Origin: Gonapodya prolifera JEL478
Taxonomy: Eukaryota > Monoblepharomycota > Monoblepharidomycetes > Monoblepharidales > Gonapodyaceae
Assembly (NCBI GenBank): GCA_001574975.1
Contig: KQ965835.1
Location: forward strand, 80,503 to 101,346
Reading direction: 5' to 3'
DNA length: 20,844 nt
Shown here: positions 2-20,844 of the stretch, one piece after another
Numbering within the stretch: the stretch's first letter is position 1
Layout of the letters: each line of letters begins with the position of its first letter
Translations under genes and position numbers: made by a program
Notes under the pieces: model-generated
What the model was told of the DNA's origin: nothing
Databases searched by the model: none
What the model saw: only the letters and a program-made list of their open reading frames with translations

Positions 2-3000
2 GAGGATGTCGTCGACTTGTTTCGATCCTCGGACGTCGCGACGATTTACTGCAGAAAGAACGAGGTGTGTTGCTTGGCGGGGATATTGTTTGAAGACCTC
101 AACTGACACAGACAATGCTCTTTTGCAACTACGAAGGAGTTCATGAATGCGCGGCCGAGGTCTCACAAACGGAAGGGATCGCGGAGAAAGAGAAACTCCG
201 GTATCTCCATCAATACCGATGTCTCAGACGCTTATGACACTCCGTCATCCTCCGACGCTTCCGCCTACTCCGACACTGCGTCCAGTTATGACTCGGAAAC
301 AACGGACTCGGAGTACGGATCAAATTCCCGAACTTCGCGAACAATCACCCCGACGCCATCCGCATTAACGGACGACGATGATCCTCCTGCATTGAAGCGA
401 AAAGTTTCCTTCGGACCCACAACGACCTTCACACTCTCTCCTACCAGCCCCGAATCGCCGGGTAACTCTCCGCCTCCTTCGGGCCCAAAATATCTTCCAC
501 CAGCTCTAACTGCAGTTGCACCACATTCCGCCTTGAAATCGCCATCACCCCGGATCGTACCCCAACCCGCGAAGCCCCCGTCGCCCACCCGGCGTATGGT
601 GACGAAAGCGCGCTCGTCTCCTGTACTCTCCCCAAACCGAGCACCCCCTCCACCGCCGAAGGAGCGTGCACCTGTACGTATCGAAATGAGGAGCGTAGCA
701 CCACAACCCCCTGCCGACCCCCGAATAGAAATGAACGCTATTCCGCGACCTTTACCTCCACCACTTCCGGACAAGGACTACGAGGGACGAGTCAAAGTTT
801 CCGTCGTCCCCGTCGTCCCTGCCGCCATACCCGTATATCCTACAAACGGAAATCCCTCTCCACGGAGCAGCAACTCTTCGGCAACAGCCTCCTCCGTGAG
901 CACTAAATGGTCGGGTTCACGAACCGCGGACCGAGCGCTCGGGGCCTTCACTGTCCGGTCGTACAAGCTCAACTCGCCGGACCAAGAAGAAGTCGTCGAG
1001 ATAAGGCCGGTGCATTTGCAAGCAATGCGACGGGCCCGGTCGTTCGACCACCTTCGCAGTGCATCCTCTCAGAGCTATGTTTCTGACTTCGGATACCCAC
1101 CGGCACCAACTGCGTATGATGCATTCAGTCGTCCACTGAAACCAGACAGCCCGCCGCCTACCGTTTTGTTCATCCCGAGAAGTCCCCCCGTTCCTGCAAT
1201 ACCCCCGCAGGATCGAAAACCGGTTCGTACCCTATCCAACAAATCAAAAAGCAATCTCGAGCGGACAAAGTCAAACAGCTCTCGGAAATCCACGGATGGA
1301 GAGGAGCCCCGAATTGGTGGTCTTGTGGGGCTTCTCAGAAGGCTTTCAAATCGGAACCTCAAAAAGGATGCAGAGAAATCAACTCAAATGGAGGAACTAA
1401 AACCACCACCTCCACCGGTGCCAGCACGACGGGAGGGATCTCAAATTAGCCTTCTTTCGGTATTGTCAGCGGCCTCCAGGAAAAGCGAGCCTGGACCCGT
1501 GGAGCCACCGCGGAAGAAGCCTCCGCCCCCACCTCCGTCCCCGGCACGCTTAAAAGAGATCGCCAAACCATCGAAACAGTACCTTGACAATGGCCCCATA
1601 AGTCCTCGATCCGAACGCTCTCTGGAACAGCAAGTGGAGGAATACTTTCCTCGGAGTGCGTCTGCCGCAAGCTCAAGCCTCACCATGGAATCACCTGAAG
1701 TTCCCTCTGTGGACACATACTGGGCGATGCAGAACAGCCGAAACGGTCCGAACCACCTTTCATGGGGCAACAGCGGACAGAACCCCGGACCTGCCGACGG
1801 AAAGCTCCTCACACCACCCGCAGTGACTGCGTCTGGACGACCAACACCGCGTCCGGCGCCGTTCTCTTGGGAGGTCGCTCAAGCTGCCACGAGGCTTTCT
1901 GGTGGCTCTATAGCGGGCCCTCGTCGCTCTGCGGAGAACCCTCCCGTCAGCCGCCTGTCGTTCGATAGACCCGAGCCACACCGCCGTCTATCCCATTACA
2001 GTGTGGAAAGCACCGCGAGTTCGTCCGAAGCGCCAACTTCGACCACTTACCTCTCCAGCGCAGGACCATTCAGTGCGAGCGCGATTGGGTTTGGCAGCCC
2101 TGTTCCAATCCCAGCGCCACGCCCTCCGAAACGAGGCTCCAGTCTTAATGTAGTGCCACCAACGCCAGTTCAGTCCCCCGCACTTCTGAAGTGGGAACCG
2201 GGAGTCCAGTTCCGGCTGAGTGGGAAGGAGTACGCGTTTCCGTTCACCTGGAGGAATGACGTGAACTCCACGGCGAGTGATTTGATGGGACCGCTTGCGA
2301 GGGCAGAGTGGGCGCCGCAAAGGGCTTGGGGCTACAAGCAGGTACGAATTTAGTGATGCTTCTTCGGGGAGTTTGGTTTTGCTGATGCTTTCACTGATGG
2401 TGCAGACAATGGTCAACGAGCTGTCAGCATCTATTCGATACAGCCCCCGGCACCGCAGCTCCAAGAAGCGAGGAAAGACAGGATTTGGATACACCCAATT
2501 TGTGAGTTGGATCTATCGTTTTCTTAAAGGACCTCCTCATGTTGATCGACCCTCCATTCCAAACAGACAATTTTCTTCAACAATCCCCAATTATTCCGTG
2601 TCGCCATGGATCTCTACGTAAAGAAAACGTCATCGCTAGGACCCGCTGATTTCCGCCACTACTTCATCCGCCCTTTGCAAGCTGTTGCCCACTTGTACGT
2701 GAACGAAAATGTCGTGACGGAATGGACTGCCGTTGAGCCACCTCTGGAGTGGCGCGGAGTGGCGGACGGGATGAGCGACTACCATGTTGCGTACATCGTC
2801 AAAGACATGCGAGAGGAGATCACCGAAGAGTGCAAGACGCACGTTGAGCTTTGGATCAAGGCTAATATGACGACCGGAGAGTGGCGTGAGTGCTTCGGCT
2901 CGTTGTCACAATATGCACGGCTGAGTCTTTTGCTAACCGCTGCTTTTCATTCTTGCCGATAGTTCAAAACAGACCTGGTTTCAGCCAGTTGAAGAACAAA

Positions 3001-3056
3001 TCGCGAGGAATCGGAGTCGGACGATGATGATAGAAGAGGCGCCTTCAAGCGAGTAA
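2..3056 (+). CDS. Paralog A: PB1-tail / Pro-Ser-rich linker / conserved C-terminal region protein (5' partial, 5 exons)
   Basis: Exon model: 2-64, 140-2341, 2406-2501, 2567-2880 and 2963-3056, about 922 residues from the window edge. The first 21 residues (EDVVDLFRSS...CRKNE) match the end of the PB1 domain of paralog C, and the intron falls at the same phase-0 place, so the PB1 start lies outside the window. The first intron (65-139) has a CTGAC branch site; 112 or 137 are alternative acceptors, and with 112 an ATG at 6 would become possible. Exon 2 is a low-complexity Ser/Pro linker with an RVxF-like KVSF near residue 109 and many proline runs of SH3/WW-ligand type. The C-terminal region (about residues 703-922) holds the conserved W...LMG...QRAWGYK block, then TIFFN...LFRVAMDLY and IAYIV-type strands shared with B and C. 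The last donor is uncertain: GTGGCG at 2881 gives an ending (VEEQIARNRSRT...) that aligns with B and C, whereas the stronger GTGAGT at 2886 gives a shorter unrelated tail stopping at 3027. Function unknown; scaffold role inferred. Confidence 0.72.
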
Positions 3057-4443
3057 GGGAGAGTTGGTCACTCATTGGTCGGTTCAGTTGCATTTTGCCT
3101 TTCAAAGATTCCCCCAATTGTGTTACTTTGATTCAAATTATGCCGAGTTCCTGGAGAATCATTGGCCCCACACGCACTCTTGACTACATTTTATATAATA
3201 TACATTTCTTATCTTGTGTCAGCTTTATCAAATGTAGAACACGTCGTTTGTTGTCAGAAAAATAGTGTTTGTTGATTGTTGCACGGTGTAGAAAAGAAAT
3301 GGAGAAATGAAGTGTTGCCTACATTTTGACAGAACGAATTGCAACATTCCACTCTCACGGTTTCACTTCGCACGAGCAGCAGTTGCCGTCCGACGTGTGG
3401 AGAAATCGTAACTCAAGCACAGCTGCCCAAGGATGTCGCACCTGCCCTTCCAAAAGTCGATACCGGACATTGCGTGCGTAACATATTTCGCTCTGTGAGC
3501 TAGGTGACAGTTGATTGCCACTCGTTAGCAAACTCCGAGCATTTGCATTTACATGTCGTTACATTCTTCGATGTGGCTTTTTAGAGCTTCATTTCAGCAT
3601 CTCCGAAGCCTTTGCACATGAATTATGACGTTTGGAACCTATCATATACTGTTTGCAATATCGGCAGGAGGGCCTCGCCACAGACTTGACACTTTGTTTG
3701 TCGAATCGAGATACTGATTGTTTTAGGTCCCGAGTCGCGCTGTCTGAGAGGCGACATGACGTTTTATTGAGGATCATGTCACTAGAGATGATTCTGATCA
3801 TGCAAAGTCGTCATTCAGCGGTAAGCCGAGAGAATAAAATCACCACTACACTTTACACTTTTGCTCTTGTTTTGCAGATTTCTGGGCTAATATCAACCTT
3901 GCTTTTCGTCGAATCCTTCTCCTTGCGAAGACTTCCCATGATTGCCACCCAACTCCGACCCGCCCAACGACGAATTCAAACCCAAGCTTAAGGCGCGCTA
4001 TATCGCAGACACGGACACCACCTGCATTGCGCGGTATCTATTTTGATGGTGTGTAGTTGATCCTACTGCGAGAGTCCGCTCCATTCGCCTGCTTCCTGCC
4101 CGCGCTCACCACACATTACCGCACACTGCGCAGCCTCTATGCTCGCCTTCCCCGTCGCGTACCTCCCCGACCCACCCCCACTCCCTCACACCTCCTCACT
4201 CACCAAGCCTCCTCCCACTCCCAAAATCAATTCCCCGTACCTTGCACTTTAATTTTAAAATTTATTCTTGTCCCCCAAAAAACAAAAATAAAATGAAACT
4301 CTCCCACCCTACACCTCCGAAGTCATTCGGTGTCCGATCCCGCCCGCCCTGCCAATTCAGCCGCCCTCGAATTTCACCCGTCCGTCCCTTGCGTATCCCC
4401 CACACGGACAAGAGCAACCCACTAAGGGATAAGGGCGGGGAAA
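3057..4443. other. Intergenic region A-B, no convincing gene
   Basis: The first 900 bases are relatively AT-rich, including a TATATAATATA-type stretch near 3190-3200 that may hold the 3' end signals of paralog A. Several short open frames occur on both strands, but none has a recognisable motif or plausible splicing. One 34-codon run ending at 4044 (FKPKLKARYIADTDTT...) looks protein-like and could be a decayed exon, yet I could not connect it to paralog B. From about 4080 the plus strand becomes very C-rich, with an A-rich patch at 4250-4290 (AAAACAAAAATAAAATG), which is more like the upstream region of paralog B than coding sequence. Confidence 0.5.
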
Positions 4444-6870
4444 ATGATGTACATGGCGCAGACGCACGTGAAACGGAACTCGGAGTCGGCGATCGGGGGG
4501 GATAAGGCGAGGTGGGACGAGGTGGAGGAGAGGAGGGGGTGGGTGCTGGTGGGTTTTGCGGAGTGCAGGGGTGGGTGGGTAGGGTGTACGGAGGAAGGTG
4601 GAAAGGTGACAGTGGAATGGGAAAGCAATGGGGAAAAGCGATCCAAGTGGAGGATGTGTGCGGTGCGCGTATTTCTCGGAATCGGAGGTGGGAGCCAACA
4701 GGTGTCTGCTGTCTGAACACACACGCGCCGGTACGAGACCGGCTTTTTTTTTTGAGCTCCTGGATGCGCACTGTGATCCGAGGAGGTGGAGTGGGCTTTG
4801 TGCTGGCTTCGATCCTGGCCTCTTGCTTGCGAAAGGGTGGAAGCCGGAGCAGGGCTCCCATGGGCACACGCAGACATCGAATACGTCGGCGCATTTTAAA
4901 GGACGAGAGAGAGTGATGGGTCGAACTATGACCTTGAGTGGCGGTTACCTTGCGACCAGTGACCATCGCTCACATCCCCGTTCCTCCCCTCGCAACGCAC
5001 GCACAGCCCTCCCGCCCCCACCCCCCACCCCGCCACCCCACTGACGCCTCCCTCGCATCCACGCTCTCCACGCTCTCCATCGCCTACTCCTCTTCCTCCT
5101 CCTCCTACTCCTCGCTCTCCAACTCCCGAAACCCACGCCCGAGATCCCTCGTGGCGCCCAAGAGAGTCCACTGGCCGGAAGAGACCGTGGATGTTGTGTG
5201 GAGGCCTGAAGTCGAGGTCGAGAGTGAGGCGGAGAGCGACGTGGACGTTGACGGGTATGGCGTTGGGTATGGCAATGGAGCGGGGAACGGGTATGGGGGA
5301 GATAGCTCCTCCGGCGTGGAGGATAGTGAATGCGACTGGACGGCTCACGACGTCGAGGTGGAGCGGGCCGATAGTGGGGTGTCTGTGTCGTCCTACCCAA
5401 CACCACCTCGGTCCACCGGGGGCGGCGGTGGGATCCGCCGTGTTCCGGCACCGGCACCACCACCCCGTCGACCGTTGCCCGGATCAGCGAGCTTTCCCGG
5501 ACTGTCATACCCGTCCTCAGCCGTGGCGGCGGCGGTGGGGTCGCTCCCATCCCCGCCCGACTCGTTCCCCTTTCCAATGCATTCCCCGCCCTTCATCTCC
5601 GCCTCTTCCCCCCTCCTGTCCTCCTCCTCCCTCACCTCGTCCCACGCCCACGCTTCATCCCACTCCCCATCCCCCACACCCACATCCTCCACGACCTCCT
5701 CTGCCGGCGCGGGGGCGGGGGAGTCGGGGTTAGGATTAGACTGGAAGGATGAGCGAGACGTGCCGATCGCGGAGATGATGGGGTGTGTGGGCGGGGATGG
5801 GTGGGGTGCGCAGAGGGCGATGGGGTATCGGGTTGTGAGTAAGGGGTGGTGATGTGGGTGATGGAGAGACAGCTGACTCACCCCACGCGCTCCCAATTCG
5901 ATTGGAAACTCAATGCAATTCCGATTTCGATTCCGATTCTTACTGCAACTGCAACTGCAACTGCAACTGCATCAACCTCCCACTCTCGTCAATCAACTCT
6001 CACCCCCACCCAATCCTCCTCACCCACCTTCCCCACCCACCCAACCGCTAATCACAGTCCAAAACGGACAAAAAAGGCGGCTACCTGACGTACATCGTCG
6101 ACGAGTCGTGCCTGGCACGCGCGAGACGGGAAGGTGTGGCGTGTGTTGTTGAGTTGGTAGGTTGAGACTAGGTGTGGGGGCGTGCAGGGGAGAGAGCGAG
6201 TGCAAAAAGGACTGACCGACTCTGAAATCTTTTCACGCACGTACCTCCTCGTCCCACCCACCTATATTCCGTCGTATCCACCCTCGGCTTCTCCTCCAAC
6301 CTCGACTCACCTCTCCCCCATACAACCCCACACTACCACACTACCACCAAACCCATCACTCAGACCCTCATCTTCCCGTACGCCCCTCTCTACGTAGCAG
6401 CCCGCAAACGTCTCCCACCCTTCCTGACCTCTCTCCGCCCATCGACATTCTTCCGCGACGTCTTGGACCCCGTCAAACCCTCCTCTATCCCCTCGTCCTC
6501 CTCCTCGTCCCCTGGCTCTATCCCCACCTCTGACCCCTCCCACCCCGACGAAGTCTACCTCCAAACCGCCTCCCTCCTGATCCCCCCACCCCCCGTATCC
6601 ACCCTCGAAAAGTCGCTCAAATCCCCGCTCGACCCCCCGACCGCCCGGATCGCACTCATCGTCCGCCCGGCCGGGTTCGCGCTGGGGGATGCGGGTGTGA
6701 AATGTGTGAGGGGGTGGGTGAGTAGGGCGGAGGCGAGTGCGAGGGTTGAGGAAGTGAGGAGGGTGGAGCAGGCCAAAAAGGTTCTGGCAGTGCAGAAGGG
6801 CGGGATAATGATGGGGATGGGTGTGGGAGGGGCCGTGGGGATGTTGGGTGGGGCGTGGGTCGGTGTGTGA
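4444..6870 (+). CDS. Paralog B: eroded PB1-like exon, Ser/Pro-rich linker, conserved C-terminal region (4-exon model)
   Basis: Model: 4444-4578, 5007-5834, 6058-6135 and 6364-6870, about 515 residues, all junctions in phase 0. The later exons are well supported; the first is weaker. It aligns without gaps to the end of the PB1 domain of C (shared M-x-Y, R, W and a VLV strand), but the acidic OPCA residues are missing and no PB1 N-terminal half was found, so the domain looks degenerate or its 5' exon is unrecognised. The linker has PKRVHW at residues 96-101 followed by EE...VVW, matching PKRVRW in C, and long Ser runs. The conserved region starts at W291 (WKDERDVP...MMG...QRAMGYRV), continues through a KKGGYLTY exon and TLIFPY...FFRDVLDPV, and ends with a strongly hydrophobic Gly/Met-rich tail of about 22 residues that could sit in or on a membrane. 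The donor at 6136 (GTGGCG) was preferred to GTGTGG at 6134 because it keeps the conserved phase. Confidence 0.65.
4568..4584 (+). other. Potential G-quadruplex overlapping the exon-1 donor of paralog B
   Basis: Four G-runs separated by 1-2 bases (GGGG-T-GGG-T-GGG-TA-GGG) make a textbook G-quadruplex pattern. The proposed splice donor GTAGGG begins at 4579, inside the motif, so folding could hide or modulate the donor. The motif is read directly; folding and any effect on splicing are inference. Confidence 0.5.
5942..5971 (+). repeat. Hexanucleotide microsatellite (ACTGCA)5 in an intron of paralog B
   Basis: Five perfect copies of ACTGCA lie in the 5835-6057 intron. They directly follow an imperfect 6-bp tract (TTCCGA/TTTCGA) at about 5921-5939. 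The tract is open in all frames, which makes spurious Thr-Ala or Cys-Asn repeat peptides; it lies between good GT-AG sites and is best read as intronic. Confidence 0.85.
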
Positions 6871-7432
6871 GTGAGCTCGCGTCGGTTTGCAGTGGGGGAG
6901 TGCCCAGTGGGTAATGCCGTCGAGTGGCGATTGGAGTGTACAGCGAAGCAAGAGCGACAACATGTATTACATCAGCAGTGAACCCTGTATATAATTGATC
7001 TTAGACGTGCGCCGTGATCAGATGCCGCCCTCCTTTGCCGCAGCCACGTCGCACGGGCAGCGCAGCCGCGAGAACGGATGGCGCGGCGACGTGTCTCCCC
7101 CGCCGACTGCGCTGTCTCCCACTGGCAGCGTGCGAACGTGTGAATGAGAGAGAGTGGGCGTGTGAATGCGAAGAGGGGAGAGTGGGAGGTCGCAGCGTGA
7201 GGGTGGTGTGGCGTGGCAGCAGCAAGCCTCGGTGTGATTAGCAGCAGAATAGGACCACTCAACGCGAACTCTGCTCTCTGTTCTGTTCCCGCTCCTGCCA
7301 ATCTTTTTGCTGCCTCCCTCGGGTGTGCCTGTCTCCTAATAGTCCGAGTGTGCTGAGGCAGAACTGGCTGAACTCTCGCTCCCGGCACCTCGCCCCCCGC
7401 CGCGCAATCTCTTCCCCACCTTCCCTCCCCCA
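6871..7432. other. Intergenic region B-C with the presumed promoter of paralog C
   Basis: No gene recognised. Sequence is mixed GC with a TGTATATAATTGA stretch near 6985-6998 and a pyrimidine-rich run just before the ATG at 7433, which resembles a fungal 5' leader. Open frames here on either strand lack recognisable motifs. Confidence 0.5.
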
Positions 7433-9789
7433 ATGTTCTGGCGCTCGCGCACCGCGTCGCCCAAGCGCACCCCGCAGCCGTCTCCCGATGCCAGCGCGGC
7501 CCCTCCTCGCCGCGGATCCGTGCAGTCCCCTCCGGTCTCCCCTCTCACCCCGCAATCGCCCAACCCTCCATCCGCGAAACGACTCGTCGTGCAACACCCA
7601 GCTGGCTCCAAATCAATCTTCATCTCTCCCCGCTCTCGCCCGCGTACCCTCGACGCCTTTGTCGCCTTGCTCAGGTCTCGCATCATGGCGCTGCAAGAGG
7701 TCAATTGGGCAGACGTGAAGATGCACTATGTGGATTCGGACGGGTATTCGCGAATTTTACTCGAGGATGACCTGGATCTGGAGCAGATGTGGGCTGTCGA
7801 GGGACCCCAGTGGCCCCTGGTGCTTGTGTCGCGGGCGGGAGGGAATGAGGTACGTCTTATGTGGCGTGTACCGCGGACTTGGACTTGGCGAGAGGTACAG
7901 GGGAAGCACGGCGGGGAAGGGACTACAGAGAAGCATTGTGCTGCTCGTGGAGAAGGACGGGATGGTTTGCCCTCCGTGGGGATGAAGTGAGGGGGGGGCG
8001 TCCCCCACATGTACATGTGTGCCGATGGCAGAATTGGCAAAAGGTACAGGGGGACACGCCGGAGCAGGGAAGTAAGGAGGATAATTTCGCTACTGGTGGA
8101 GACCCAAGGACGCGGGATGGAGTGCCCCCCGTGGACGACCGTGCGTCCCCCGCGTGTGTCGGCTGCGGCACCCATGCACACGCCGCCACTCACACCGACC
8201 ATTCCACTTTCCCACTTAGGCTTCTCAACACCTCCCCCACGCACCTTCCGACTTCATCGCCCACCCGCTTCCCCTCTCCGCTTCCGTCTCCGCCTCCTCA
8301 GACCACGAATCCACATCCTCCCTCGCTCGGCAAACCGTCCCCTCGACCCGTCGCACATCCTCCGTCGGACCCGGCTCCACCACGGGGGCGGGTGCCCCCA
8401 AACGCGTGCGGTGGCAAGAAGGCCCCCCCGTGTCGTGGACGCCTCCACCGAGTCCCGTGGACACGATCCGAAGCGGCACGTCGCTCCATGCGAGAGCAGG
8501 CTCGCTCGACTTACCTGTCGACACACGCACACGAACTCTTCCCGCACGGATCTCACCCTCGTTACTCTCACCGGGTCTGCTCTCCCCAACCGCCTCATCC
8601 CACTCCGGGGCGTCTAGCGGGGGCGGGGGCTCTCTTACACGCTCCCCATCCCTGCCCCTCGTCCGGCACCCACCCCCACCCTCCTCCGACACATCCTCTA
8701 TCTCCTCCTCCACCACCACCTCCTCCTACGGCGGCGGCTCCACCCTAAGCTCTTCCGCCTCCAAATCCGCCTCCGACGTCCTCCGATTCCCCCTCCCCGG
8801 CGCGGCGTGGGCGGGGTTGGTGCTGGAGTGGAAGGATGAAAGGGATGTGCCGATTGGAGTTCTGATGGGAGCGTTGGGGAGACAGGAGAGGGGGGAGCAG
8901 AGGGGGTGGAAGTGGAAGTTGGTGGGTTGAAAGGGGGGTGAAGAGCTGCTGGCTCGCCCGGACAAGGGTATCCGAGGGCACAAGTGACGCCACGACGCCA
9001 GACGTCCGTGCACTCCCCCGCGGATGTCATCTCTCGGCGCCTTGCCTTGCGTTTCTCCGTTTCTCCGCAGTCGGGATCCCCCGCCGGCCGCCGCGTTATC
9101 TAACATCCGCCCTCATCCCTCCCCCCACCACCCCACCACCCCACCGCACCAACAGATCCGCGCCGAACCGAACCAGCTGTCCATGACGTACTACCCCGCG
9201 AATGTGGATCCGGTGATTTACACGAGGGTCACGTCGCATGAGTTGCCTGAAATTGTGGGTTTGTTTGTGGTATGGCTGGCCATGTCTTTGTTGTGTCTCA
9301 CCTTATTCTTCTCTCCCACATCCACCACTACCACTCGCCGCCTTGCCCCAACACTCCCACCGCACACAGACCCTCTTCTTCAACACCCTCTCCCTCTTCC
9401 GCTCCGCCCACAAACACATGCGCTCCATCCTTCCCTCTCTCCACCCATCCGACTTCTTCCGTGACCTCGTGGACCCCCTCCGCCTTCGCGACGTCCCCCC
9501 ACCCCACCTCCCCAACTCCTCCCACCCACCCGAAATATTCACCGACTGGTCCTGCGTCGTCCTCCCCGACAAAGTCCACCGCGGGACGTTGGCACACGGG
9601 CAGGGAAACATCGCGTTCGTGGTGCGTGAGGCGGGCGATGGGTTACGGAATGAGTGTCGCTGGGCTGTTCAGGCGTGGTTGACCAAGGAGTCGGATCGGG
9701 TCGTGGGGAGGATCAGGGAGGTCGCGGCTCCGGCGAGGGACAGGCAGGTGGCGCTTGTGATGGTGCCGGGGATTGCATTTGGGTTTTAG
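7433..9789 (+). CDS. Paralog C: PB1 domain, Ser/Pro-rich linker with RVRW motif, conserved C-terminal region (4 exons)
   Basis: Model: 7433-7849, 8220-8921, 9156-9254 and 9370-9789, giving 545 residues with every junction in phase 0. The ATG at 7433 follows a pyrimidine-rich leader. Residues 1-48 are Ser/Pro-rich; 49-133 form a PB1 domain with a basic first strand (AKRLVV) and an acidic OPCA-type motif (YVDSDGYSRI...EDDLDLEQMW, residues 99-120). The PB1 family is known for heterotypic pairing in polarity and signalling complexes. The linker (140-340) holds PKRVRW at 199-204, followed by VSW. The C-terminal region has W343-KDERDVP...LMG...QRGW, an exon with LSMTYYP, then TLFFNTLSLFRSAH...FFRDLVDPL, which aligns ungapped over 38 residues with A and B, and a final DW...VVLPD...IAFVVRE...ECRWAVQAWL block. 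This is the best-preserved member. Molecular role unknown; a scaffold or phosphatase-targeting protein is the working inference. Confidence 0.75.
7866..8160 (+). repeat. Diverged tandem duplication (about 150-bp unit) inside intron 1 of paralog C
   Basis: Two copies run about 7866-8013 and 8014-8160. Shared blocks occur in the same order: TTGGC..A.AGGTACAGGG, GGGAAG, GTGGAGA, GACGGGATGG / GACGCGGGATGG, CCTCCGTGG / CCCCCGTGG, and GCGTCCCCC followed by a GTGT-rich run. The repeat fills most of the 370-nt intron 7850-8219, whose GTACGT donor and CCCACTTAG acceptor lie outside it. It explains why this intron is much longer than the others in the gene. Confidence 0.65.
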
Positions 9790-10843
9790 AATGGGCGTGG
9801 GTTGATGGGGTTGGGGAGGTGGTGGTTGGGGTTCAGACGGTTGGGATGCGAGAAGTTGACCGGTCGAGGAAAAAGAGTCCTCGCCAGGCGCGGGGACACG
9901 GTTAATGCGCCCCTTCCACGGCATCGACCCCGATCGGATGCTCGCCCCCAATCCGACCTTCACACCACTTGCTCTACATACCGCAGCCACCGCCCCCCTT
10001 CCTCCAATCTCGGATCCCAGAACGTACAACTCGTCACGCGCTAGAAAAGAATCTGACACGGACACCACATGGGATAATGCTGATTATGGGTCGTTTTGTA
10101 GGAAGTATTTTGATTTTGGTTTTCTTATTTTGATGAGGTTGAAAATAGATACCCGGCCGCCGCCCAAGTGGGGGGGATGTGAACTTGCGTTTGAGTAATA
10201 AGGGCATGCCGAAGTTGTGGCCAGACACCGACGCAGGTGTTGTTTTCTAAGGATGGCCTTTGCCAGGTGGCGGTTCCTCTTCTTGGCGATCTCGATCCTG
10301 CGCCGACACGGCATACTCCGAGGCGGATTGCAGTGAATAAACGAGCGAAAAGATAATCTGAAGATGTTATTTTTGTATCTTTTTTGATGATAATTTGCGG
10401 TGCAAGGGTTCTTGACACTCCAAAAGGCCCTTTTCGCGCGGATGGGGGCCGAACAACAGGAAAGAGACGAGCCACCCACTCAATACGTTACGAAATCTGG
10501 TTTCTGTGCTACTCAAACATGCAGACAGCTCTAATTGCGCCATTGCCCCCGTGTTGTCCGCCGTCTGTAATCTGATCAGAGGCACACTGCCGGAAACATG
10601 AGACCGTTTCGGCGTGATTGACTCTTACATACGAGTGGAATTACGTCTCCCCATCTCTCACAGCTTCTTCTTAAATCAAATTTTCGGTCATCACCGCCAA
10701 GCAAGCAACAAAAGTCATATGACTGGCGGCGGCTGGATCTATTATGCTGTCAGAATTTTTTCTCCCCCACCCCAGTTATATCTCCCCCCCCCAAATAAGG
10801 ATTTTGAGGGAATGTTAAGCTGAATTAAAATAATGTATTCAAG
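9790..10843. other. Intergenic region after paralog C, no gene recognised
   Basis: The C-rich/G-rich character of the gene cluster fades out by about 9900, then the sequence becomes AT-richer. Small open frames are present: a plus-strand frame of about 97 codons at 9905-10198, and minus-strand frames at 10084-10479 with a basic run (KKRNRHLAKAILRKQHLRR). None has a known motif, splice pattern or codon behaviour that would support a gene. A C-rich tract occurs near 10765-10795. Confidence 0.5.
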
Positions 10844-11149
10844 TCATTGTTGTGCCTTTATACAACAGAAAGCATAGAGCTGCTCTCTATATCTAAAAAT
10901 ATCCTCCTGTGTCATTTTGGGGAGTTCAATGCACTCCCCATTTGCTATCTGATCAAAATGTCCACCATTCATGTGATTCTCCCAGATAAAAAAATGCGGC
11001 CATGCAAATGAAAGCTCCACAGGCTGGGTCTGACCCCTGTTGAGGCCAATCGAGGCAGTGCAGAATTCTGGCATCTGCAGGAATGTCACTGTCAAAAAGA
11101 TAAGAAAGCATGCAAGTGCATGCCTCAAGTTTTGGGCCATATTCATCAA
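10844..11149 (-). CDS. Possible small secreted protein, hypothetical
   Basis: An intact 101-codon frame with an ATG and a hydrophobic N-terminus (about residues 10-27, with leucines and phenylalanines, followed by a TEFCTA-like small-residue stretch) that resembles a signal peptide. The rest is ordinary soluble sequence, rich in aromatic residues (WPHFFIWENH...), ending EDIFRYREQLYAFCCI. I do not recognise the family. It lies alone in gene-poor, repeat-bearing DNA, so it could equally be a fragment of a mobile element. The surrounding region gives no clear promoter. Confidence 0.3.
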   Translation of the reverse strand: MMNMAQNLRHALACFLIFLTVTFLQMPEFCTASIGLNRGQTQPVELSFAWPHFFIWENHMNGGHFDQIANGECIELPKMTQEDIFRYREQLYAFCCIKAQQ

Positions 11150-11491
11150 GGTTGTAGTGGAACTAACACTCGAAGGGGTTAGTAGGAACTACTGAAGGCT
11201 TGGGTAGGATGGGGCATAAAGGTAGCTTCAGGCACCACTATTATATGTTCAGAAGCCTCATCTAGCTAGACCAATACACATCTATCTCACATACTACCAT
11301 CTCTCTCTCCATCCGATCCTCTCTAGTCCCGCACTGCTACTTACCCTTTGGATGACCCTAGGAGGCTGATCGAGTATCAGTTCTACCACAAGGTTAGGGC
11401 AGCAAAGAGAGTCAAACACAACCCATAAGTTGGTGCAAGCAAATCGGCGTCAATGCCGGCTAGTGCCCTTGTGACAGAACTACCGCCGTAA
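11150..11491. other. Gap upstream of the ankyrin fragment, nothing definite
   Basis: No gene recognised. A short protein-like run of about 33 codons (LDDPRRLIEYQFYHKV...) ends with a stop near 11430 on the plus strand; it is too short to assign and may be a relic. A pyrimidine-rich stretch lies at about 11290-11330. Confidence 0.4.
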
Positions 11492-11731
11492 CCAACCCAC
11501 CTCTTTGCAGCTGTGGATTGTCAAGACACCGAACTAACCGTATTTCTCCTCAACCAAGGAGCGGACGTTACAATTCGCGATCGATGGGGGAATAGTGCGT
11601 TTAGCGGCATGGTACACGACAGTTCTTTTTTCTGTACCGTTTTCAGAGCCGATTTAAGAGAGGAAGTCTTTGCAGCACTAGAGGCGAGAGGATTCCTTCC
11701 CGAAATGCTCGAGAGGCGCCCATACGTCTAG
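11492..11731 (+). pseudogene. Truncated C-terminal fragment of an ankyrin-repeat gene
   Basis: The 79 codons from just after the TAA at 11489 to the stop match the C-terminal end of the ankyrin gene at 12182-13826. THLFAAVDCQDTEL aligns with TPLHCAMHLRDTEL, GADVTIRDR with GADITIRDR, and ALEARGFLPEMLE with ALEERGIFRAMLE. Only the last ankyrin repeat and the tail remain; the upstream sequence has an in-frame stop and no matching repeats, and there is no start codon in the conserved part. It is most simply the remnant of a duplicated neighbour. It could be a terminal exon of a gene whose other exons I cannot see, but no acceptor fits well apart from a TTTGCAG at 11504-11510, which lies inside the homologous stretch. 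Confidence 0.7.
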
Positions 11732-12181
11732 TCTGGTGGAAATTATATATCAGAAGAACTGCCAGTCACTACACCACGCGATATCAGTGGAGAAACGTGC
11801 AGACGGAGTGGGAGTCGATCAAAGGCACCCGCATATCAGAAGACTCATTTTCCGACTTGAGTGTCGACCAACCTTTCTTATAGGTCATCCCACTCCTATT
11901 TGGCCATGTCAATATTTTATGTTCGCTGGTCGTGATGGAGTAGACGGATGTACCACGGACCCCTCGCACATGTCAGCAGAGGGGACAAAAGGAGGGGGAT
12001 ATGACGACAATAGTCATACGTTTGTTAAATAATTCATGCCAGTTTCGCTTGTATTTGAATAATAACTAGAGCCTTCATTCTGTGGACAACTCGTTCACTG
12101 GTTCTGCGGACAATTGAACTCGGTCAAGTGAGTGTGACAAGTCTAGATCCCATCCGGCAACAACACAGCTTGAACTTTCGG
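11732..12181. other. Gap between ankyrin fragment and ankyrin gene
   Basis: No gene recognised. A 98-codon open frame on the plus strand (11736-12032) has no motif and an irregular composition. The segment just before 12182 presumably contains the promoter and 5' leader of the ankyrin gene; no clear TATA element was found. Confidence 0.4.
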
Positions 12182-13826
12182 ATGAACGAAATCAACGCAA
12201 GTGGGTATTAGTCGTGATTCTCTTCAGTCCGCAACCGATTGACAGTGGTCCGGTTTCCGATGTCCGCAAGCACACACATCCGCGATATTCTCTCTTCTCA
12301 ACCTTCCCTCGGAGCTCATCCTCCGCATCTCTCTCTCCTGGACTGACTATCCGCTCGGCCTCCCGACCGAATCACACAATCGGGCCATCTACGCCCTCCT
12401 GGGCGATCCCGGAGCTGTTGCAGCAAGAGCCCTCGCGAGTTATGGCTCAGTGGACGAAGCGCTTGTGGCGGAGGTGATCCGCGCGGCGAAGACGGGTGAT
12501 TTTCGCGTCGCGACGATGCTTCTGAACCAGGGTGCCGATGTCAACGGGAAGCTGGTCAGATACGACGACAGTCATGAGGAACGATACATGAAATACACCC
12601 CTCGGTTTTTCTGGGTGCAGGATCAAAACAAGGAGGACGCAAACGGGGGAAATGGAAATGATTTGCGAGGTGCTGGAAACGGAAATGATCTCCGCAGATG
12701 TGCTGGCCGAAGAGAATCGAGGAGATCTTCCTTCAGTGATGCCGACACGGAAAGTACTGTGAGCGATGCAGAGCACCTCTATACTACACCGCTCATAGAA
12801 GCGTGCAAAGCCCGTGCTCCAGCGGCTGTCCGCTTCCTTTGCGAGAACGGAGCAGACCCCAACGGGAATACGTGCTTGATATACCCCGTGGCGGAGGCCA
12901 CGGCAAAAAACTTGCAGCACGACATTCTGCAAATTCTTCTCGAGTTTGGGGCCCGCCCAACAGACGAGTCATTTGGCAACGCGTGTATAAAGGGACACGC
13001 TAGAGTAATTCAAGTTCTCCTTGATTATTCACCTCGGGATTGTATTGACGCTTGGATCAATACAAGCGTGGTGGTACCATCTTTTGGTGACAATCACTTC
13101 CTTCGCGACGCTTGCAGTTGTGGACAGGTCGAAATTGTCAAACAACTATTGAAGGCGGGCTTCAGTGTTGAGCCTCATTCTGCAGCGGTGGACACACCAC
13201 TCACAGCCGCGTGCAAGTATGGTCACTTTGATGTTGTGCGCGTCCTGGTGGACCAGGGCGCCACCGTGAACGGAATAGCGTCTGAGGAATCGTGGGAGCG
13301 TGAAGCAGCGCCCACCCCTTTGCTACGTGCATGCCAGAGCGGTAATTTGGAAATCGTAGAGTTTCTTTTGGATAGGGGAGCGGACATTGACTTTATTGGC
13401 GAGGGCAGTGCCCTCCATATCGCTTGCTCGCGACAACACATGGATCTCTTCCAATTGTTGATTACAAGGGGGGCCAAGGTGGATACTGGCAAAATAGTCA
13501 AGGACCATTGCAGCACGTTGCATCACGCTTGGACAAAGGAGGTCGCTCAAACCCTCCTCGACCTGAGTGCCAACGTGAATGGACAAATGGAATACAACGA
13601 TTGGATCACTCCCCTCCACTGCGCGATGCACCTTCGGGACACGGAACTTATCTCGCTCTTTGTGGACCACGGAGCAGATATCACAATTCGAGATCGGTCG
13701 GGAGAGAGTCCATTGAGTGATCTTGTGACAAACAGACGTGGCTACGGTGAAAATTTCATCAACAGAACCCTTGATGCGCTTGAGGAAAGGGGAATTTTTC
13801 GGGCAATGTTGGAGGAGGCCATATGA
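12182..13826 (+). CDS. Ankyrin-repeat protein with F-box-like N-terminus
   Basis: About 524 residues in the model 12182-12200 plus 12271-13826 (intron 12201-12270, GTGGGT donor, TTGAC branch, CAAG acceptor). The long frame is open from 12243 but has no early ATG; the short first exon supplies one. Otherwise the nearest in-frame ATG is about 12516, which would delete the conserved N-terminus. An ATG at 12260 reaches the same frame only with a one-base shift. The N-terminus LLNLPSELILRIS resembles an F-box core (SCF ubiquitin-ligase adaptor), which is inference. Roughly eight to nine ankyrin units follow, with typical TPL..AC..G...IV..LL..GAD spacing, from about residue 70 to 490. An acidic/Ser insert with a duplicated GNGNDLR motif (about residues 131-150) separates the first unit from the rest. 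Ankyrin arrays bind proteins; the partner here is unknown. A truncated paralog lies 450 bp upstream. Confidence 0.75.
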
Positions 13827-17230: not shown

Positions 17231-18437
17231 TCAACATGGAACGGTCAACACCCCCCCCCCCGCCCCCCACCCCTCCCGTCCTCTCACCTTCCGCACAAGT
17301 CCCTGCAGCTCCTTGGCTCTCATCGCCGACACTTCGAGGACCTCCTCATGGTTCACGACCTGTTCGGGGGCCTGATTCTGTTCAGAGACGGGGACGGGAG
17401 TTCCGAGGATTTCGTGTGAGACGGAGGGGACGGGGCGGTATGGGACGCGATTGGTTATGAGGGAGATTCTGCGTGCGGGGGTGACGCGGGAGGGTGGTAA
17501 GGAGGAAGTGATCAATTTGGTGAGGCGCGCGGCTTCGGAAGGATGAGGGACGGAAGACGCACCCAAGCACGCGGATCCCGGCATGTCTCGCCACGACGAC
17601 TTCAGGTACGGTGCTCATCCCGACGGCGTCGCCTCCCGCCTGTACGAGTAGGCGGGCCTCACCCCTGGTCTCGTACGAGGGACCAGCCACATAGCAGTAG
17701 GTTCCCTCCCTCGCAATCTTCTGCATCCCGAGCTCCTTGACCGCTCGAAAGAACGTACGGCGGAGGTCCGGGTCGTACGCGTCCGACATCGCGGGGAAGC
17801 GGGGTCCGAACCTATCCTCGTTGGCGCCAATGAGTGGGTTCCGCCCACCAAGCCCCGCGACCGACATATGGTCCTTGATCGCCATGACGTCCCCCGGCAC
17901 GTAGGTCTCGTTGAGCCCTCCTGCGGCGTTGGTGACGATCAGGGTGTGCACGCCGAGGAGGGAAAGCACGCGCACGGGGTATGTCGTGAGCGCGAGGTCG
18001 TGGCCCTCGTAGAAGTGGAAGCGGCCGACCATGAATGCGGTCGGGATGGAGTTGAGGTGGGCCAAGACGAGGTTGCCGGGGTGCCCTTGGACGGTGGATG
18101 TGGCGAAGTGGGGGATGTCCTGGGATTTCGGATGGGTTGATTGAATTGAATTGGAAGTCACCACGACGGTGCGGCGATTATTGAACGACAGAGCGAGCCA
18201 ACTCGAGCACCATCCGCACCGCACCTTGTAGGGAATGACGACCTTCTCTCTGTCCTTGTCTACCGAGTCCACGAGTCCGCTGAGTCCTGATCCGCAGATG
18301 ACGGCGACGTGGACGTGCTGCAGAGACGGCGGACAATGCGAGCGGATCCACGCGACGGTCTCGTCGTATTTGGGAGCGGAGTGTGGAGACATCGCGTGTT
18401 GGTGTGTCGAATCGGTGACCGCAGCATTCATCGGCAT
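17231..18437 (-). CDS. PNP1: Purine nucleoside phosphorylase, trimeric (PNP/MTAP family), 3 exons
   Basis: Exons 18437-18225, 18119-17563 and 17468-17231 encode 335 residues, near the usual size. Introns are 105 nt (phase 0) and 94 nt (phase 2); both were placed because the joined protein restores family motifs (IPYK-DIPHF and VLG-ISLITN). The enzyme cleaves inosine or guanosine with phosphate to base and ribose-1-phosphate in cytosolic purine salvage. The expected active-site residues are present: phosphate loop GSGLSG (49-54), H84 in GHPG, R104/H106/Y108 in GRFHFYEG, NAAGG (135-139), E221 in GPSYET, M239/S240 in VGMST, N263 in LITN and H297 in NHEE. The Asn in LITN favours 6-oxopurines over methylthioadenosine, so PNP rather than MTAP. 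The last codons pass through a long G-run, so the exact C-terminus is uncertain. The start at 18437 was chosen as the first ATG; 18431 and 18392 are alternatives. Confidence 0.93.
17251..17277 (-). other. G-rich homopolymer tract in the 3' end of PNP
   Basis: On the plus strand there is a run of 11 C (17251-17261) followed by further C-runs, so the coding strand carries 11 G plus several G-runs of G-quadruplex type. It encodes a Gly-rich end (GWGAGGGV) just before the stop. Length variation here would change the final residues and the stop position but not the catalytic core. Confidence 0.7.
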
Positions 18438-18515
18438 CCCCAAATGCGGGCGAGTTCACAAGTAATCAATCAGTTGACTTAATAAGTAAATAGATTAAAT
18501 AGTAATCACACATGT
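18438..18515 (-). promoter_or_regulatory. Probable promoter / 5' leader of PNP
   Basis: An AT-rich block (about 18462-18510, with TAATCAATCAG and AATAAGTAAATAGATTAAATAG on the plus strand, shown in part) lies directly upstream of the PNP start between GC-rich sequences. This is typical of a fungal promoter core; no specific factor site is claimed. Confidence 0.35.
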
Positions 18516-18965: not shown

Positions 18966-19194
18966 TGCGAGGGGCTTGGGCGAGCTCCCTCGCAAGTTGC
19001 TGTGGCCAACCTTTGGCACACGATTCATCAAATCCGGAAGCTTTTGGACTTCACCCAGCTGTTGGACTTCACCCTCTTAGCGTAAACTAGAATCTGGCGA
19101 TTTATAAATGAATGTAAACTGCTGCAAAATAAGTTCCGACTTCGATCCTCACTCTCGCTCGCTCATCTCGTCCCCTCGTCTCGCTCGTCTCTCC

Positions 19195-19211
19195 GGTCAC
19201 TTGGCGTGACC
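19195..19211 (+). other. Conserved hairpin GGTCAC-N5-GTGACC in LTR 1
   Basis: A perfect 6-bp stem with loop TTGGC. It is repeated at 19681-19697 (loop TCGGC) and, on the minus strand, at 14562-14578 (loop TTGGT). All lie about 85-95 bp downstream of the TATA box, so they would be in the transcribed leader. Confidence 0.7.
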
Positions 19212-19265
19212 TCTCGGCTCTCGGGTCTCTCTCTCGACTCTCTCNTACTCGTTCTCGGCTCTCTC

Positions 19266-19282
19266 GCACGCTGGTCGCGTGC
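19266..19282 (+). other. Second leader hairpin GCACGC-TGGTC-GCGTGC in LTR 1
   Basis: A perfect 6-bp stem with a 5-base loop. LTR 2 keeps a 5-bp version at 19769-19783 (CACGC-TGGTT-GCGTG). The solo LTR has only a degraded form. Confidence 0.6.
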
Positions 19283-19325
19283 CCTCGGACTCACTCAGCA
19301 ACCCCCGCCCGCTCCCCCTCACACT

Positions 19326-19337
19326 TGGCGCTCCCGG
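19326..19337 (+). other. Putative primer-binding site
   Basis: TGGCGCTCCCGG begins 2 nt after the end of LTR 1. A primer-binding site classically begins TGG, complementary to a tRNA CCA end. The tRNA is not identified, and the equivalent after LTR 2 (TTGTCTTCCCG) has lost the TGG. Confidence 0.35.
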
Positions 19338-19450
19338 CTAGGTCTGACCGCGACGCAGACCACTTCCACCACGGCACCCCATCCAGAGTCATCCTCCGGA
19401 CCCGTCTATCGCTCTCGGCTTCTCTCCGGCATCGAACCCACATCCATATT

Positions 19451-19825
19451 TGTGAGGGGCTCGGGCGGACCCTCACAGTTGCTGTGGTCCAAGTCAGCGG
19501 AACACGCTGGAACTCATCGGAACTGCTTGCGCAATAACGGACACGATTTGATAAGCAGAATATGAAAAGCGTAAACTAGAATTGGAGCTATATAAACACT
19601 TGTAGAAATGCTAAGAATAAGCCTTTTGACTTCGAATCTCACTCGCCTCACTCGTTCCCACTCGCTCGTCGCGGCTCTCAGGTCACTCGGCGTGACCTCT
19701 CGGCTCCCTCTCGGCTCTCTCTCTCGCTCGTACTCGACTCCATCTCTCGCTCGTACACGGCTCTCTTACACGCTGGTTGCGTGCCTTCGGACTCACTCGG
19801 CAACCCCCACCCGCTCCCCCTGACA
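19451..19825 (+). mobile_element. LTR copy 2 of the tandem pair (375 bp), immediate 5' LTR of the gag element
   Basis: Starts TGTGAGGGGCTCGGG and ends CCCCCTGACA. It contains a TATATAAA box (19589-19596), the motif GCGTAAACTAGAAT shared with LTR 1, and both hairpins (19681-19697, 19769-19783). It lies 127 bp after LTR 1 and 173 bp before the gag ATG. Confidence 0.78.
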
Positions 19826-19998
19826 TATTGTCTTCCCGTCTCCGGTCTGACTTCGCAGCCCCGCCACCGCCACGTACGCCCTCACCTACCGGTCATCAAC
19901 GTTCCCCATCAACACCAACCGCAACTCGTTCGATCTCCCTCTCATCCCCGGATTTATCCTGGTACCTGTTAGACCACCCGATTCACCGTCTTCGCAAC

Positions 19999-20844
19999 AT
20001 GCCTGGCCCTGATCCTGCCCCCTCGGACCTCCGCCACCTCAAGATCCTCAACCACCCACTCGACGAATTCAACCCACGCGACCCCCGTACCAGTCTCCGG
20101 AAATATCACGCCTACATCTCGGCCGTCGACGACTATGTCTCGCTTTACGGGTTGGCCGGAAAGCATCCTCAGGCGATCGCCTTGGTATCCCCGAACGTCC
20201 CAGACTCTGTTCGCGACAGCATTCGCCTCGCCCACCCCGACGCTACGACGCTCACCATCGAGGCCTGGAAGAAATCACTCGAGATCGCCTACTTCCCTCC
20301 CGATCCCCATGTCTGGCATCGCACCTTGGCCAAGCTCGAGTGGGACCCCAACACCTCCCGCCTCTCAACCCACGTCGCGGAATTCATTCGCATCGCCCGC
20401 CGCGCCGACATTGTCGACTCCTCGAAACTCGATCCACAGGAACAGCTCGCCTCCCGGAATCTCTGGTACCACTTCCTCGACTCGCTCCCACAACATGTCC
20501 GATTCTATGTTACCCTCCTTGGAATCACCAACCTCGCCGACTTCACCAGCGACAAGATTGCCCTCGTTGAAAGCAACCTCAACAACATCTCGTCCACTCC
20601 ACCTGCATCCGTCACCAGTGTTGCACGTGTCAACTTCCAGCTGCCGCACCCGGAACCTGCCCCAAGCACCATCTCCAAACTTGAGTCTGCCATCGACCAG
20701 CTTGTTCAACAAGTTGCAGCCCTTTCTGCCACCCCCCGCCCCCAGCAACCCNCGTACCAGCATATTCCCCTTGCGCCACCAGGACCTGCACCACCTATCC
20801 ATGCTGACGCCCCACCCCCATTCACAACTGGCTGTGGATGGTGC
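19999..20844 (+). CDS. gag: Retrotransposon Gag-like polyprotein start (3' partial)
   Basis: ATG at 19999 opens a frame of 282 codons that reaches the window edge without a stop (one N at 20752 leaves a residue undetermined). The first 200 residues are helix-rich, with W-K-K-S-L-E-IAYFPPDPH followed by a WHRTLAKLEWD...STHVAEFIRIARR block, which is the typical architecture of retrotransposon capsid (Gag) domains. A Pro/Ser/Gln-rich linker with a short predicted coiled stretch (ISKLESAIDQLVQQVAAL) follows. The last residues GCGWC could be the first CxxC of a CCHC zinc knuckle. The ATG lies 173 nt after an LTR, as expected for gag. Protease, reverse transcriptase and integrase would lie beyond the window. 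Ty3-type affiliation is a guess. Confidence 0.82.
   Translation, partial: MPGPDPAPSDLRHLKILNHPLDEFNPRDPRTSLRKYHAYISAVDDYVSLYGLAGKHPQAIALVSPNVPDSVRDSIRLAHPDATTLTIEAWKKSLEIAYFPPDPHVWHRTLAKLEWDPNTSRLSTHVAEFIRIARRADIVDSSKLDPQEQLASRNLWYHFLDSLPQHVRFYVTLLGITNLADFTSDKIALVESNLNNISSTPPASVTSVARVNFQLPHPEPAPSTISKLESAIDQLVQQVAALSATPRPQQPXYQHIPLAPPGPAPPIHADAPPPFTTGCGWC

Follow-up and report, generated by a model that had tools for sequence, protein, structure and literature searches.

A Gonapodya prolifera gene family of about 25 members that joins PB1 and SH3 modules to a C-terminal domain without a match in the libraries searched

The current analysis concerns a 20,844-nucleotide stretch of the genome of the fungus Gonapodya prolifera JEL478 (NCBI GenBank assembly GCA_001574975.1; 47.6 Mb in 207 contigs), which corresponds to positions 80503-101346 of contig KQ965835.1 (designated C105) and is referred to as the window. 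Three neighboring genes, A, B and C, whose models were assembled by hand, are located between window positions 2 and 9789, all of them on the plus strand (Table 1), in agreement with a previous interpretation of the DNA letters (the sequence-only reading) that had described three same-strand neighbors. The 5' end of gene A is located outside the window, a run of 6,000 N just upstream (C105:74503-80502; L003) hides the start of A together with a neighbor, and the start of its PB1 is visible only on the homologous contig C36. The product of gene C, which is encoded by four exons, comprises 545 amino acids. A, B and C are members of a larger gene family with about 25 genes in this one genome. It is a real gene family, unnamed in the libraries used, that combines known modules with one domain matching nothing.

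The C-terminal domain of A, B and C comprises about 185 residues in three coding exons, and its two introns are located, in phase 0, at identical places in the three genes and in gene D, which adjoins A on C36. Local scores of the domain were 69 for A/B, 142 for A/C and 221 for B/C, and the best of 2,000 shuffles reached 54, 64 and 59, respectively. The 38-residue segment that had been aligned without gaps in the sequence-only reading is above chance, with 9 (A/B), 15 (A/C) and 17 (B/C) identities that were reached for no pair in any of 20,000 shuffles. A genome search with protein C as the sole query, i.e., a single-sequence test independent of any family profile, retrieved the last exon of B at an E value of 4.0e-8 and that of A at 0.00128. 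The proposed common C-terminal region is borne out by the shuffles, the single-query search and the shared introns, and a check of its alignment by profile and significance tests found it significant and left the claim unrefuted. The domain consensus reads L.WK......E.MG.LG..EW..QR.WGYK ... S..Y.PR ... TIFFN...LF..A....P.K...L.P..F...FV.PL...TEWA...PP...GD.H.AYVVK..G..L...C...V..W; the domain alignment holds 34 of 37 rows, in three of which (gene C of the window and the members on C100 and C27) the middle exon was replaced by hand.

The exon structure recurs throughout the family. An AG immediately precedes the first codon in all 43 last exons that were matched from the first domain position, and of the 40 first parts with a match extending to their end, 31 are followed by a GT in phase 0 at the expected position. 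Eight of the remaining nine read on into a peptide resembling the spliced middle exon; no such peptide was found in the ninth, C55_141193. A gene at 88 kb of C51 lacks the first domain intron that is present in its close relative on C70, and since the pair gives one identical peptide across the joint, the splice sites are supported from a second side. As an observation in its own right, the clean absence and presence of this intron (C51:88.3-88.9 kb [L037] and C70:243.2-243.9 kb [L036]) may reflect an intron recently lost or gained. The middle exons were selected for their resemblance to exons, those of A, C and D among them, and their similarity is thus not independent.

Comparison of the spliced models between C105 and C36 resulted in ratios of nonsynonymous to synonymous substitution rates (dN/dS) of 0.09 for A (876 codons), 0.18 for B (469 codons) and 0.14 for C (541 codons), at dS values of 0.31, 0.63 and 0.38, respectively. 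A, B and C are under purifying selection, and the low dN/dS over the spliced models supports the reading frames used. The spliced joints are backed by the same-place introns across the family, by the read-through members without the first intron and by the selection acting on the spliced frame. The assumed old duplication with retention by selection is supported by the shared ancestry of the C-terminal regions, by the tree described below and by dN/dS.

At E values of up to 1, protein C found 58 places in the genome and a second query 83, which represent exon matches and not genes. In the stretches fetched from 19 contigs, the family profiles gave 46 last-exon, 41 first-part, 25 PB1 and 8 SH3 matches, some of the 46 being two pieces of one interrupted exon; the profiles were iterated on the fetched loci, and their E values include members used for building them. 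Alignments A2 and A3 comprise 16 of 20 and 29 of 36 matches, respectively, after omission of near-identical, short or split ones. The midpoint-rooted tree of the last exons (39 of 43 rows, four short rows having been dropped) contains 14 close pairs, each across two different contigs, and 11 further rows, which according to our count corresponds to about 25 lineages. B and C group with gene E and a gene on contig C3 (support 86/87, drawn open), and A is placed apart from them in the opposite half of the tree (93/89, drawn open); according to a warning of the tree program, the B and C pairs form long branches whose grouping is possibly an artifact, and the deep part is weakly resolved.

On C36, the minus strand carries genes A and D at 95-100 kb, and the plus strand carries B, C and E at 116-124 kb. 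Because the two groups lie apart on opposite strands, C36 lacks the A-B junction of the window, and of the two homologous contigs only C105 shows the head-to-tail trio A-B-C. Window positions 3466-3541 match C36 near the far side of A, and positions 3468-3525 match again ahead of B, which fits a breakpoint at a repeat. The region is partly duplicated on C36 and has diverged (87% for a piece of gene A). The trio had been put forward as the best candidate for an undescribed system, but as a unit it had to be rejected: C36 has not retained the A-B junction, A is separated from B and C in the tree, and the family consists of about 25 lineages, of which the trio is a local sample. Gene E was found only on C36 with the two genome queries; it follows C at C36:122.5-124.5 kb (L014:6402-8885), and none is present between C and an ankyrin gene in the window (9790-12240). 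Further downstream, C105:125-152 kb and C36:126-151 kb (L015-L019, L038, L039) carry the same family genes in reversed order and strand, as after an inversion.

Searches of Pfam with the domain pieces of A and B, the whole of C and D, 29 last exons and the consensus returned nothing significant for the domain. The 29 last exons hit seven families with one member each (best, PROL5-SMR at 0.032 and DUF3615 at 0.038), which were treated as chance matches, and sequence-profile searches of the PDB with the domain gave one row each, with E values of 0.062 and 0.27 and unrelated names. The statement of the sequence-only reading that the region cannot be tied to a named family therefore holds for the libraries searched (Pfam and PDB). 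A structure model of the last exon of A, based on three window sequences and covering the third domain exon but not the first two, had a low predicted local distance difference test score (pLDDT) of 64 and the order strand-helix-helix-strand-strand-strand-helix. Foldseek found no row below an E value of 2.8 with this low-confidence model. Four rows of the VIA fold search with the same exon (Z scores of 2.0-2.6) were bacterial toxin and toxin-antitoxin proteins (HigB and YoeB/ParE) and were regarded as chance. Among the literature matches listed, no title dealt with this gene family, which does not prove its absence.

With respect to the N-terminal modules, the PB1 of gene C matched PF00564 with 22.5 bits (E value, 1.2e-4), just below the cut-off of 23.6, and the whole 545-amino-acid protein had no match in Pfam at E values of up to 1. 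The family PB1 profile matches gene C over 73 positions. PF00564 was detected at E values of up to 1 in 8 of 16 family members (best, 1.6e-6), and the copy at C36:151319 exceeded the cut-off in the genome search. The first PDB matches of the 16-row PB1 profile were the PB1 domains of NBR1 (0.0035) and Cdc24 (0.033). In each of the 16 members, 7 to 14 acidic residues are present in the last 40 amino acids of PB1 (VDSDG...LEDDLDL in C), which corresponds to an acidic stretch of the OPCA type. A single-sequence model of the PB1 of C, at a low confidence (pLDDT, 59), showed the expected order E-E-H-E-E-H; its first Foldseek row was the PB1 of Cdc24 at a nonsignificant E value of 0.52, and its superposition with the PB1 of 6tgs yielded a Z score of 2.5 and a root mean square deviation of 3.7 over 73 aligned positions. 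For gene B, the family profile with filters off reached best E values of 0.27 on C36 and 8.7 in the window in the stretches around the gene. Thus, the PB1 in C, albeit below the PF00564 cut-off, and the PB1 tail in A were found as described in the sequence-only reading, but the eroded remnant claimed for B was rejected, as none is detectable on either contig.

SH3 domains were found above the Pfam cut-off in gene D (27.5 bits) and at L038 (29.6) and L024 (32.1) and below it at L016 (25.3 versus 30). PB1 and SH3 occur together in one gene on C28, in two genes on C36 and in one on C105. Several members on C55/C107, C36/C105 and C31/C100 (L033, L040, L041, L015, L018, L029, L032) are without PB1 and some without SH3 in the fetched stretch, and their N-terminal parts may lie further upstream. 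A genome-wide Pfam search for PB1 at E values of up to 0.1 resulted in 11 matches. Two of these overlap members of the set of 25 family PB1 copies, and a third, at C105:124381, is located just ahead of another family gene. Since so few of the Pfam matches overlap the PB1 copies, ordinary annotation would miss most of the family.

Table 1. Exons, domain parts and linker motifs of genes A, B and C in the window
Feature	Window position	Strand	Remark
Gene A, exon with PB1 end	2..64	+	Clipped by window start; extends PB1-like exon seen on C36
Gene A, linker exon, final part is first part of C-terminal domain (2231-2338)	140..2341	+	Acceptor at 112 or 140 (uncertain)
Gene A, RVxF-like motif KRKVSF	395..412	+	Motif scan
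Gene A, middle domain exon	2406..2501	+	
Gene A, third domain exon (TIFFNNPQLF...)	2567..2885	+	
Gene A, short last exon	2963..3027	+	C36 copy ends similarly
Gene B, linker and first part of C-terminal domain (5730-5831)	4938..5834	+	Exon start uncertain
Gene B, RVxF-like motif KRVHW	5160..5174	+	Motif scan
Gene B, middle domain exon	6058..6156	+	
Gene B, last exon, carries third domain part	6364..6870	+	
Gene C, first exon, PB1 at about 7577-7795	7433..7849	+	Family PB1 profile, PF00564
Gene C, linker exon, final part is first domain part (8814-8918)	8220..8921	+	
Gene C, RVxF-like motif KRVRW	8400..8414	+	Motif scan
Gene C, middle domain exon	9156..9254	+	Donor hand-picked to match C36 copy
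Gene C, last exon, carries third domain part	9370..9789	+	

Upstream of B, the plus strand of the window encodes at positions 4444-4660 a short peptide starting with MMYMAQTHVKRNSESAIGG that is 63% identical to C36 over 70 residues and could represent either an initial exon of B or a small frame of its own. Within the first intron of C (window positions 7882-8134), a stretch of about 100 bases is present in two copies that are 73% alike. An ankyrin-repeat gene (window positions 12243-13826, plus strand; PF00023, 3.6e-43) has a short match (82%, 142 bases) next to gene E on C36, and a purine nucleoside phosphorylase-type gene (17382-18455, minus strand; PF01048, 1.3e-34) has copies on C36 (83%) and C42 (80%). 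The end of the window (19568-20844) carries the start of a long terminal repeat-type retroelement, whose first approximately 226 bases recur at no fewer than 45 places (best 40 of 64 candidates scored) and are followed by a gag-like open frame without a Pfam match in the frames scanned; a related repeat (76%) is located at 19079-19348. Rfam gave 0 matches within the window at gathering scores. The genome contains an IFT46 match over the cut-off and 72 matches of the Fungal_trans family, which together point most probably to a fungus with flagella.

Overall, the shared ancestry of the C-terminal regions, the duplication with selection and the unnamed domain persist from the sequence-only reading, whereas the PB1 remnant in B, a family-wide RVxF-like motif and the trio as a unit do not. 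The build of the family would be a PB1, an SH3 in some members, a long Pro/Ser-rich linker and the conserved C-terminal domain. This anatomy, in which assembly modules and disordered linkers are combined with a single conserved globular end and in which the scanned frames contain no enzyme domain, makes it somewhat probable that the proteins are PB1/SH3 scaffolds or adaptors with an undescribed partner-binding domain. No enzyme domain was detected with Pfam in the family frames scanned, i.e., the domain pieces of A and B, C, D and 20 further frames; three of the latter contained SH3 and one a Peptidase_A22B (L041:3255-4001), which was not accepted as a family part and was interpreted as an adjacent gene. 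PB1 domains pair head-to-tail, the acidic OPCA face of one contacting the basic first strand of another, and the PB1-bearing paralogues could thereby form homo- or hetero-oligomers. The SH3 domains and proline-rich linkers may provide further contacts, and the C-terminal domain, which is common to the family, probably represents a common output that binds a shared partner or surface. For members without PB1, such as B, the linker or the C-terminal domain would be the only means of participation. The weakest step of this scheme is the possible recruitment of protein phosphatase 1 (PP1) by the RVxF-like motif of A, B, C and the C3 gene. Several points weigh against the scaffold interpretation: the role is deduced from anatomy, the C-terminal domain has neither a known fold nor a known partner, its model being of low confidence, the PB1 of C is under the cut-off, B and many other members are without PB1 in the fetched stretch, and the enzyme-domain negative covers only a part of the family frames.

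Four other explanations have to be weighed against a scaffold family. The hand-made, RNA-free splice models and the GC-rich, repetitive sequence raise the concern that the models are partly wrong and that the likeness of the shared region is due to chance or low complexity, but the shuffle tests, the conserved introns and the selection on the spliced frames oppose this, and it is extremely unlikely. A fast-turnover family for self/non-self recognition or host interaction, with tandem arrays as a source of variety, would be in line with the clusters on C36/C105, C51/C95 and C21/C27, with the restriction of gene E to C36 and with the gene order rearranged between C36 and C105; given that A, B and C have dN/dS values well below 1 and that 14 of the about 25 lineages are retained as close pairs on two contigs, we consider it quite improbable.

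The linkers suggest a different role, namely, that of regulatory subunits of PP1, in which the RVxF motif would dock the phosphatase and PB1 together with the C-terminal domain would select the place or substrate. A, B and C carry RVxF-like motifs, as the sequence-only reading had noted; the motifs are retained in the C36 copies of these genes and occur in the C3 gene. Hydrophobic residues follow the motif closely in B and C, a layout known from PP1 regulators. However, short motifs arise easily, and only 10 of 34 linker frames had a match, versus 3.1 expected from shuffles, in a count that takes copies on homologous contigs twice. Seven of the ten belong to A, B and C, to the C36 copies of these genes and to the C3 gene; the other three are of a different kind, two being located at the very start of the domain. 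As a family-wide part the motif was therefore rejected in favor of a subgroup feature, and a PP1-regulatory family appears unlikely. A low probability likewise applies to organizers of an NADPH oxidase or of cell polarity, equivalent to p40phox/p67phox or Bem1. The combination of PB1 and SH3 in one protein is indeed found in Bem1 and phox proteins (PMC2121648, PMC7051960), but the PB1 of the present family is N-terminal, no PX or TPR match was obtained in the Pfam-scanned frames (scanned exon by exon, for a part of the exons), and about 25 lineages are far above the need of one oxidase or polarity complex.

The modules on which the scaffold or adaptor interpretation draws are known already. 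The available text of PMC7051960 distinguishes four families of PB1 proteins across 12 fungal proteomes (Bem1, Cdc24, CBS-PB1 [Mug70] and NoxR) and sets aside two single-species cases (a p62-like protein and PB1 with SAM), and that of PMC2121648 names the same four fungal kinds. An N-terminal PB1 combined with the present C-terminal domain matches none of these four kinds, and the build with its common C-terminal domain appears in neither survey as far as their available text extends. If it is widespread in early-diverging fungi, a scaffold repertoire has been overlooked by domain surveys, and the domain alignment supplies a profile for finding the family elsewhere. A bolder proposal, which we regard as rather doubtful, is that the undescribed domain would define a fifth fungal PB1 family, whose about 25 paralogues would form, in this zoosporic fungus, a combinatorial PB1/SH3 assembly code with the A/B/C/C3 subgroup targeting PP1.

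Compared with known PP1 regulators, the likeness is confined to the RVxF-like motif that A, B and C carry in their linkers, most members being without it. Cdc24 and CBS-PB1 (Mug70) share a PB1 with an acidic stretch, whereas no RhoGEF or CBS match was obtained in the scanned frames of the present family. NoxR/p67phox and p40phox likewise contain PB1 and SH3 modules, but the present family has no TPR or PX match in the scanned frames, carries its PB1 at the N terminus and has many members. Bem1/Scd2 (SH3-SH3-PX-PB1) resembles it in uniting SH3 and PB1 within a single protein that has a disordered linker; unlike Bem1/Scd2, the family of G. prolifera has its PB1 first, at most one observed SH3, no PX match in the scanned frames and a different C-terminal domain.

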